Source: Natrialba swarupiae
GTDB lineage: Archaea > Halobacteriota > Halobacteria > Halobacteriales > Natrialbaceae
Length of the DNA: 64,000 nt
Assembly (NCBI RefSeq): GCF_008245225.1
Contig: NZ_VTAW01000009.1
Span: 1 to 64,000, forward strand
Direction: 5' to 3'
Shown: one piece after another, positions 37,150 through 39,585 of the stretch
How the letters are laid out: each line of letters opens with the position of its first letter
Numbering within the stretch: the first letter of the stretch is position 1
Made by a program: the position numbers and the translations under genes
The notes under the pieces: model-generated
Databases searched by the model: none
Seen by the model: the letters and a program-made list of their open reading frames with translations, nothing else
Told to the model about the DNA's origin: nothing

Positions 37150-37158
37150 AGTCGGCGG

Positions 37159-37413
37159 TCAATCCGCACCATTGGTTAGTTCCAGACCGTCTCGATTCCC
37201 GCATCGCGGATGATTTCGTCCGTCGTGATGATCGCATCCGTCTCTCACGTTCGAGACGTACCCACCCGTTCTCGTCGAGTCCCCGCCGACTTCGTCGGCG
37301 ATTCGGATTTGGGGCTCGCCGTCGGCTGTGTATTCGTCCACCGGCTCGAGTCTCTCGATTTTACCGTCCGCTGCTCGAATGTGTTGCTGACATTGACGAG
37401 GTCGATCATCAGG
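37159..37413 (-). pseudogene. degenerate open frame, unidentified
   Basis: On the minus strand a frame (about 37330-37240) encodes VDEYTADGEPQIRIADEVGG and a second frame continues ETDAIITTDEIIRDAGIETVWN before a stop at about 37180. The codon use fits haloarchaeal coding, but a frameshift joins the two parts and there is no clear start. I do not recognise the family; the last stretch is helix-strand-like, as in small PIN or HTH domains, but that is a guess. Confidence 0.3.
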
Positions 37414-37740
37414 CTACGAGAATAGTTGTTCTACACCACCGTCCGAGATCTGGACGAGGAAGAAGAGTATCAGGATAAGGGCGTACGCTATCACCACGAT
37501 TCGAAGGATCCCAGCCGCTCGCTGGTGACGTTCGGGGAGTAGTTCCGGGACTCCCTGCAATATCCACAGTATCCCGAGGAGAAGCGCCGTATTCCCGAGA
37601 CCGTAGCCCAAACCAAAATAGACGTACAGAGCAAAAAAGGGAAGGCTGACAGCAATGTAGCTCAGTCCCGTCCAGATCCCGTCGGGTTCTCTGAACAATC
37701 TCGTTTTCACTCGTTCCGTCGCTGATCGGTCGGTTGACAC
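37414..37740 (-). CDS. small membrane protein, function unknown
   Basis: 108 residues with three transmembrane helices (about 26-46, 48-66, 78-98) and a basic N-terminus. Glycine-rich turns (LGYGLGNTALLLG). No motif recognised. It lies immediately upstream of the toxin-antitoxin region, so it may be part of the mobile segment or the original neighbour of the FemAB gene. Confidence 0.55.
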   Translation of the reverse strand: MSTDRSATERVKTRLFREPDGIWTGLSYIAVSLPFFALYVYFGLGYGLGNTALLLGILWILQGVPELLPERHQRAAGILRIVVIAYALILILFFLVQISDGGVEQLFS

Positions 37741-37840
37741 GAGACACGTCGGTGGTGACTACACGTTCACATATAGTTTCCGACCCGTAACTCTCGAAGA
37801 ATGCGCTGTGTGAAAGCGGATCGACGAACTCACCTTGAAC

Positions 37841-37895
37841 CATCACGACACTCGATTGCCGGGAATCACCGTCTCGCCCACCGCTCGAGTACCCA
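37841..37895 (-). pseudogene. duplicated 3' end of the proline dehydrogenase gene
   Basis: On the minus strand it encodes RAVGETVIPGNRVS followed by TGA, almost the same as RAVGGTVIPGNRVS plus stop at the end of the proline dehydrogenase gene. 43 of 49 bases match between 37841-37889 and 38729-38777, in the same orientation. Nothing else of the gene is present here. The two copies bracket the vapBC pair. Confidence 0.85.
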
Positions 37896-37970
37896 CCAGT
37901 CTTGATTCGCTCACGAAACGTGGGCCACATGCAGCCCAACATGTATTGCACAGCGGCCCATAAGTTAACT

Positions 37971-38240
37971 ATGGCAGCCGAGAACGTCCCCGAGTCGACG
38001 ACCGTCAGCGATCGAGGGATGGTCACGATTCCGGCATCGTTGCGCCGGCGTCTCGACATCGAGGCGGGCGACAAAATTCGGTGGGACCTCGACGAGGACG
38101 GGAACCTTACGGTGGAAGTCGTCAAGCAGCGACACGGTGCGTTCGACGATTTCGATCCCGTTTCGATGGGCGGCGATGGGCTAGAAACGCACGATCTGGC
38201 AGGTCACGAATCCGACTCCGCGCGCTCGGAGGATTCGTAA
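37971..38240 (+). CDS. vapB: AbrB-type antitoxin VapB
   Basis: 89 residues from ATG at 37971. TVSDRGMVTIPASLRRRLDIEAGDKIRWDLDEDGNLTVEVV is a SpoVT/AbrB swapped-hairpin DNA-binding domain. The acidic C-terminus probably binds the toxin. The stop overlaps the start of the PIN gene by one base (TAATG), typical of toxin-antitoxin operons. It likely represses its own promoter. Confidence 0.85.
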   Translation: MAAENVPESTTVSDRGMVTIPASLRRRLDIEAGDKIRWDLDEDGNLTVEVVKQRHGAFDDFDPVSMGGDGLETHDLAGHESDSARSEDS

Positions 38241-38668
38241 TGCGAGTCGCGGCCGTCGATACGGCGGTTCTCGTCGGGATGGTCGATGCCGACGACCGGA
38301 ACCACGCCCCCGCGACGGAGATCGTTCGAGCGATGGACCACGGTGACCTCCCGGTGGGACGTGTGATCGACTACGTCATCCTCGAGACGTTGAACTGGAT
38401 CCACAGCCGCCACCGTCACGAGAAAGCACACGAGACCTACGCTCGCCTGAACGAATCGGCCGGATTCGAGATCCACCACACAGCACAGAAGGACTTCCTG
38501 CGAGCACTCGAGCTATTCGAAACCCATGAGGGACTCTCATTCGGCGACGCATCGATCGTCGCGTACATGGAACGTGAAGGAATCGAATACGTCTATTCGT
38601 TCGACGACGACTTCGATGCCGTGGACGGAATTACTCGGTTGGACACTCCACATAATCCGTTCGGGTGA
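38240..38668 (+). CDS. vapC: PIN-domain toxin VapC
   Basis: 142 residues starting MRVAAVDTAVLVGMVDADD. Conserved acidic residues Asp7, Glu49, Asp103 and Asp122-124 fit the PIN nuclease active site, with LSFGDASIVAYM as the third motif. VapC toxins cleave tRNA or rRNA. It is coupled to vapB by TAATG. Both genes sit between two copies of the proline dehydrogenase 3' end. Confidence 0.88.
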   Translation: MRVAAVDTAVLVGMVDADDRNHAPATEIVRAMDHGDLPVGRVIDYVILETLNWIHSRHRHEKAHETYARLNESAGFEIHHTAQKDFLRALELFETHEGLSFGDASIVAYMEREGIEYVYSFDDDFDAVDGITRLDTPHNPFG

Positions 38669-38728
38669 TGGCGTTCGCAGCGATGTAGTCACCTCGACCG
38701 ATGGACTGTAGCCGGCGATGAACCAGGA

Positions 38729-38777
38729 CGTCACGACACACGATTCCCGGGAATAACCGTCCCACCCACCGCTCGAG
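38729..38777 (-). repeat. direct repeat at the 3' end of the proline dehydrogenase gene (right copy)
   Basis: 49 bp, 43 identical to 37841-37889 in the same orientation. It covers the last codons and stop of the proline dehydrogenase gene plus 2 bp beyond. With the left copy it frames the vapBC locus, like attL/attR left by an element that targets a gene 3' end. Confidence 0.8.
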
Positions 38778-39585
38778 CGGCTAATCCGACGTTTCGCCTT
38801 CCTCGATTGAGGACCCATCGCTTCCAGCGCTCGCCGTAGGGGACGAACTGTGCGACGTCGTGTTCGCGTGCCAGGTCGCGCTGGGCGGCCGGTCGGACGC
38901 CCATCAACATCTGAATCTGGAAGTCGGTATCGTGTCGGCGGGCCAGCCTCTGTGCGTGGTCGATCATCGCGGGGTCGTGAGTCGCGACGGCGATGGCGTC
39001 TCCACGCCGTCTGAACGCCCGCTCGAGGAGGGTTCGGTACGCGCGATCTCGCCGATCAGGATCGGTGTACGCGATCGCCTCCGGCCGGGGGTAGGCACCA
39101 CCCTTGACGAGTCGCAGGGCTGCGTCGGTGTCGGCGAGTCGATCGAAGTCCTCTCGAGTGCGATAGAGGTCAGCCTGCAGGCAAACGCCGATTCCGTCCC
39201 CGTACGCCGCGGCGAGGTCGACGGTCGCCTCGAGCGTCGCCTCGACAGTTCCGTGTTCTTCCATGTCGAGCCAGACGAAGACGTCGCGGTCGCGGCCGCG
39301 TGAGACGATCCGCTCGAGTTCGCCTCGAAAGACGGAGTCATCGAGATCGAGTCCGAGCTGGGTCGGTTTGACCGAAATCGCGGCCTCACCCTCGAGCGTG
39401 GCGAGGCGGTCGGCGAGCGCGCGATACTCAGCGGCGTCGGCGCGGACGCTCGCCCTGTCGTCGTGGTGAGAGCCAAGCAGGTTCACCAGTGGGACGACTC
39501 CGTCGCGGTCGAGCCGGCGTGCGTACTCGAGCGCTTCGATCGCTCTCTCGCCAGCGACGAAACGGTTCGCGACGGGCGGGATCAT
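38731..39585 (-). CDS. proline dehydrogenase
   Basis: 284 residues, the single-domain PRODH type. TIM-barrel features: VNLLGSHHDD, ISVKPTQLGLD, VWLDMEEHGTVEATL, GVCLQADLYRTREDFDRL, RLVKGGAYPRPE, AVATHDPAMI, FQIQMLMGVRPAAQRDLA, VPYGERWKRWVLNRG, matching the FAD and proline binding sites of the family. It oxidises proline to pyrroline-5-carboxylate at the membrane. The partner P5C dehydrogenase is not in this window. Confidence 0.9.
   Translation of the reverse strand: MIPPVANRFVAGERAIEALEYARRLDRDGVVPLVNLLGSHHDDRASVRADAAEYRALADRLATLEGEAAISVKPTQLGLDLDDSVFRGELERIVSRGRDRDVFVWLDMEEHGTVEATLEATVDLAAAYGDGIGVCLQADLYRTREDFDRLADTDAALRLVKGGAYPRPEAIAYTDPDRRDRAYRTLLERAFRRRGDAIAVATHDPAMIDHAQRLARRHDTDFQIQMLMGVRPAAQRDLAREHDVAQFVPYGERWKRWVLNRGRRNVGLAARAVGGTVIPGNRVS

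Follow-up and report, generated by a model that had tools for sequence, protein, structure and literature searches.

A vapBC toxin-antitoxin pair bracketed by two copies of a proline dehydrogenase 3' end in the haloarchaeon Natrialba swarupiae

In the genome of Natrialba swarupiae, an archaeon of soda lakes, a pair of toxin-antitoxin (TA) genes, vapB and vapC, lies next to the 3' end of the gene for proline dehydrogenase (ProDH) and is bracketed by two copies of that end. The DNA considered here (the window) is the first 64,000 nucleotides of contig NZ_VTAW01000009.1, a 142-kb contig in an assembly of 99 contigs. Comparison with related genomes supports an insertion at the ProDH 3' end, which has left the gene itself intact. 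As to how the insert arrived, we tentatively prefer a single recombination event, one that would have placed a horizontally acquired vapBC unit behind ProDH and would also have brought in the ProDH 3' end of a related haloarchaeon.

The repeat and its contents

The two copies, R1 and R2 (Table 1), form a direct repeat of 47 bp with 42 identical positions and an offset of 888 bp. Within the slightly wider limits of 37841-37889 and 38729-38777 the identity is 43 of 49, exactly the repeat that a first-pass annotation of this DNA had described. Because the copies differ at five sites, they do not represent one sequence copied during assembly. Chance is ruled out as well: an ungapped repeat scan gives a score of 32 at this locus, compared with maxima of 16 at 29 other vapBC loci and 13 in the DNA downstream of about 75 further ProDH genes. 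When R1 is used as the query, its sole match in its own genome is R2 (E 2e-11), and its sole match in Natrarchaeobius chitinivorans AArcht4T, the nearest named relative and assigned to the same genus as the present genome, is the single ProDH end of that genome (E 1e-10). The 841 bp between the repeats (37890-38730) contain vapB, vapC, and nothing else recognisable, again in agreement with the earlier description. R2 also includes a perfect 12-bp palindrome, ATTCCCGGGAAT (38743-38754), which is broken in both R1 and N. chitinivorans; it may be the dyad of a recombination site or may have arisen by chance.

Table 1. Coordinates of the repeat copies, the insert, and neighbouring features within the window
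Feature	Position	Strand	Description
PIN (VapC) toxin remnant	37182-37245	-	C-terminal remnant of a different PIN toxin, ETDAIITTDEIIRDAGIETVW; tblastn E 8e-8 in 3 kb
Small open reading frame (ORF)	37414-37740	-	108 aa; absent from the interval in relatives; part of the lineage-specific interval
R1	37843-37889	-	Detached distal copy of the last 47 nt of ProDH including the stop; encodes RAVGETVIPGNRVS and stop
Inserted DNA, R1 to operator	37890-37925		Unconserved in other vapBC loci, whose homology begins at 37926
Operator-like element	37928-37948	+	Around ACATGCAGCCCAACATGTAT; two ACATGY/ACATGT half-sites; predicted autoregulatory site
vapB	37971-38240	+	Antitoxin, AbrB/MazE fold, 89 aa; PF04014 2.7e-10, TIGR01439 3e-9
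vapC	38240-38668	+	Toxin, PIN domain (predicted RNase), 142 aa, intact; PF01850 5e-15
Inserted DNA, vapC stop to ProDH stop	38669-38730		No significant homology to the R1 flank or to relatives
R2	38731-38777	-	Repeat copy forming the actual ProDH 3' end; derived codons; encodes RAVGGTVIPGNRVS and stop
ProDH	38731-39585	-	Proline dehydrogenase, 284 aa, intact; Pfam Pro_dh PF01619 5e-15

Empty sites in related genomes

ProDH relatives are present in 83 of the 100 genomes searched, and the gene order GH-like gene-FemAB-ProDH-mgtE is syntenic in six genomes, three congeners and three other members of the family (G001, G002, G003, G059, G016, and G017). In all six, N. chitinivorans included, the gap between FemAB and ProDH measures tens to about 300 bp and contains a single ProDH end and no vapBC. 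Such empty sites had been predicted by the first-pass annotation. Across 125 genomes of the family, matches to the bracketed region are confined to 37926-38668, from the operator to the vapC stop, together with the single ProDH end of N. chitinivorans. The vapBC unit and the repeat therefore differ in history: the former moves about unaccompanied by the latter, which is tied to this insertion.

Direct repeats at the ends of the inserted DNA and a single copy at the empty site are marks of an integrated element, and it had indeed been proposed that a small element integrated in the ProDH 3' end and restored the gene. The insertion at this position is supported by the six empty sites. The integrating element is not demonstrated: the 142-kb contig contains no integrase, viral contigs, plasmids, and phages gave no att-like copy, and homologous vapBC units have no repeats. 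A filled site carrying an integrase, which had also been envisaged, was not found in relatives. Thus, the claim of an integrating element exceeds the evidence, and an integrase scar is possible rather than proved.

The vapBC unit

The vapB and vapC genes overlap by 1 nt (TAATG), and this arrangement, in which the gene for a PIN toxin is preceded and overlapped by that of a DNA-binding antitoxin, is that of a type II VapBC TA system. Both Pfam matches, PF04014 and PF01850, exceed the cut-off, and the pair is conserved in relatives. VapC aligns over its full length with 15 relatives and retains the conserved acidic PIN positions; its closest solved relative by sequence is VapC20 (PDB 5wzf, E 3e-5). 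The ACATG-N7-ACATG element that precedes vapB here recurs in the same place at 9 of 15 homologous loci and is likely to be the vapBC operator. The unit would behave as an ordinary autoregulated type II TA system, with a PIN RNase restrained by an AbrB-type antitoxin, and the earlier suggestion that it stabilises the segment is plausible.

Homologues of VapBC with about 70-73% identity are spread across the order in several families and also occur on plasmids or secondary replicons of Natrinema, Haloarcula, and Haladaptatus; the horizontal acquisition of vapBC is therefore well supported. Elsewhere, homologous units occupy unrelated sites, and no flanking repeats were found at the 29 other vapBC loci scanned.

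Which copy is the resident end

Over the 47 bp, R1 and R2 differ at 5 positions, R1 and the N. chitinivorans ProDH end at 6, and R2 and the N. chitinivorans end at 9. The codons GGC, GAG, and GGC are common to R1 and N. chitinivorans and are altered in R2. All three sites that can be polarised place the change in R2, among them a replacement of E by G; the glutamate in question is kept by four relatives (N. chitinivorans, G001, G059, and G016). The simplest reading, a lean on three sites, is that R1 is probably the resident end, now displaced, and R2 the end imported with the insert. Four of the five differences between R1 and R2 are synonymous, which indicates that most of the divergence took place under coding constraint. 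Past the stop codons, homology among the R1 flank, the R2 flank, and N. chitinivorans is not significant against real-sequence nulls; because this sequence is unalignable in every comparison, it cannot decide which copy is resident. A wholesale replacement of ProDH in the source genome was also considered and left no sign, as the divergence between its ProDH and that of N. chitinivorans (75%) is in keeping with the generally fast rate of the gene.

A proposed recombination event assisted by homology

In the recombination event that we prefer, the incoming DNA would consist of a ProDH end followed by vapBC and would recombine with resident ProDH, the crossover falling within the shared 3' end or a short way upstream of it. 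The other end of the incoming DNA would then join illegitimately within the last 47 bp of resident ProDH, right after CTCGAG. As a result, R2, the imported end, would complete ProDH, and R1, the resident one, would come to lie 888 bp downstream. A later recombination between R1 and R2 that deleted vapBC would be counter-selected by the toxin. Both the import of R2 and the manner of joining are things we infer. One-sided illegitimate recombination is nevertheless placed slightly ahead of an integrase scar, because it needs no lost enzyme and explains both why identity ends at the stop codon and why the edge falls at CTCGAG, where the R1 junction lies. Under recombination, identity would stop at the stop codon because donor and recipient share conserved sequence only where it is coding; the observed pattern, similarity up to the stop and unalignable flanks beyond it, is that seen between orthologues of two species. 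A mechanism that leaves displaced 3' ends has been proposed for Vibrio effector arrays (PMC5361080).

The hexamer CTCGAG is itself abundant in this DNA, with 236 copies in the window versus about 22 expected from base composition (about 11-fold); it is the second commonest hexamer.

Several considerations weigh against this recombination event. A polarity that depends on three sites has a p of about 0.125 under equal rates, and synonymous changes only in R2 would also fit R2 as the functional end. R1 and R2, with their 5 differences, resemble each other more than either resembles the N. chitinivorans end, and a duplication in place would give the same result. No donor arrangement in which vapBC adjoins ProDH was found; in genome G018, a vapC is 10 kb from ProDH, too distant to qualify. 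Finally, homology-facilitated illegitimate recombination is an uncommon process, and we found no haloarchaeal example reported.

Other routes to the same anatomy

A possible, if doubtful, alternative is that a tyrosine integrase recombined the gene's own end, serving as attB, with an attP that included a replacement ProDH 3' end; R1 and R2 would then be attR and attL. The element would later have lost everything except vapBC, or it would have been mobilised in trans. Both the length of the repeat and its place in the 3' end of a coding gene are typical of archaeal integrated elements, the gene is restored, the distal copy resembles the resident end, and the interval has carried other foreign genes. 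Yet a PF00589 integrase is absent from the 142-kb contig and from about 35 kb around the homologous vapC genes that were checked, and the insert, being vapBC only, is linked to no recombinase. Integrated elements that lack an integrase have been reported (PMC8371274). Against such an element, viral contigs, plasmids, and phages yielded no copy of the repeat, nothing related to the element over its full length was found, and homologous vapBC units lack flanking repeats.

It is unlikely that the repeat arose locally, through a long-overhang break or a template switch that captured vapBC and duplicated 47 bp of the target, the copies being identical at first and drifting afterwards. Such an event would yield the same anatomy without any donor ProDH, and the closeness of R1 and R2 relative to N. 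chitinivorans agrees with it. However, the non-coding copy, R1, should then have drifted most, yet the polarisable changes fall in R2, the copy that belongs to the gene; this smaller change in the detached copy makes a local target duplication less likely. The duplication would also have to end at the stop codon by coincidence, as the flanks beyond it have no significant similarity.

Two further ideas have little in their favour. It is improbable that vapBC and an att-like host gene end constitute a very small non-autonomous mobile unit on which an integrase of the host or of a virus acts in trans, placing it in the 3' ends of metabolic genes. Least probable of all is the alternative offered by the first-pass annotation, an ancient tandem ProDH duplicate in which vapBC took the place of everything except the end. 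A detached gene end would be the expected leftover, yet the interval contains no second ProDH in any relative (second ProDH genes, where they exist, are located elsewhere), and next to R1 no ProDH sequence from 5' of the final 47 bp remains.

The interval between FemAB and R1

The DNA on the far side of R1 carries the small ORF and the PIN remnant listed in Table 1. The 108-aa ORF has no Pfam or NCBIfam match, and its homologues, with 30-49% identity, are scattered over haloarchaea. The remnant comprises 21 C-terminal residues, 14 of them identical to a PIN protein of genome G007, and its frame is broken upstream; the G007 protein comes after its own AbrB-type antitoxin. The remnant thus points to a TA insertion of earlier date at this place. 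The G+C content is 55% in the stretch from FemAB to R1, 59% in the insert, and 63% in the window. Together, the ORF, the remnant, and the low G+C suggest that the interval between FemAB and ProDH probably received foreign DNA, TA genes included, at least twice.

Three other candidates were rejected. The stretch 37150-37842 contains no convincing decayed third ProDH end: the best local score there is 22, the 95% limit from shuffled sequence is 20, and with six comparisons such a score is within the range of multiple testing. An inverted vapB-like match at 37265-37292 is due to chance, as is a DNA match on contig C82, which lies within what reads as an arginyl-tRNA synthetase gene.

Relation to known systems

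The insertion scar is clear, and its type is already known in outline. Archaeal integrated elements occupy the 3'-distal part of protein-coding genes by means of a tyrosine integrase (PMC6563490, PMC8371274); virus BJ1, for example, is integrated in a Halorubrum HMG-CoA reductase gene (PMC8371274). The present locus resembles them in the duplicated 3' end of a coding gene, the intact gene, the att-sized repeat, and the empty sites in relatives. Unlike them, it has an insert of 841 bp with vapBC only, no integrase, no relatives of the element, and no evidence of excision. There is also a likeness to the effector-immunity arrays of the Vibrio type VI secretion system (PMC5361080) and to the displacement of Rhs C-termini, in which a new module arrives with a replacement gene end and the old 3' end is pushed downstream. 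In those arrays, however, the module includes the replaced effector domain, whereas here an unrelated TA pair sits behind a metabolic gene whose product is unchanged. In gene order, 1-nt overlap, operator-like ACATGT element, and PIN residues, the pair is like other haloarchaeal AbrB-type vapBC units (PF04014/PF01850), but it alone is flanked on both sides by copies of an adjacent gene's end.

With one case and a repeat of 47 bp, the mechanism is not settled. What the locus offers is a readable scar of how a TA pair can enter a chromosome and leave the adjacent gene unbroken: a second end completes that gene, and the former end stays behind. Scars of this kind could show how vapBC genes, so numerous in archaea, are able to spread when no mobile element is evident.
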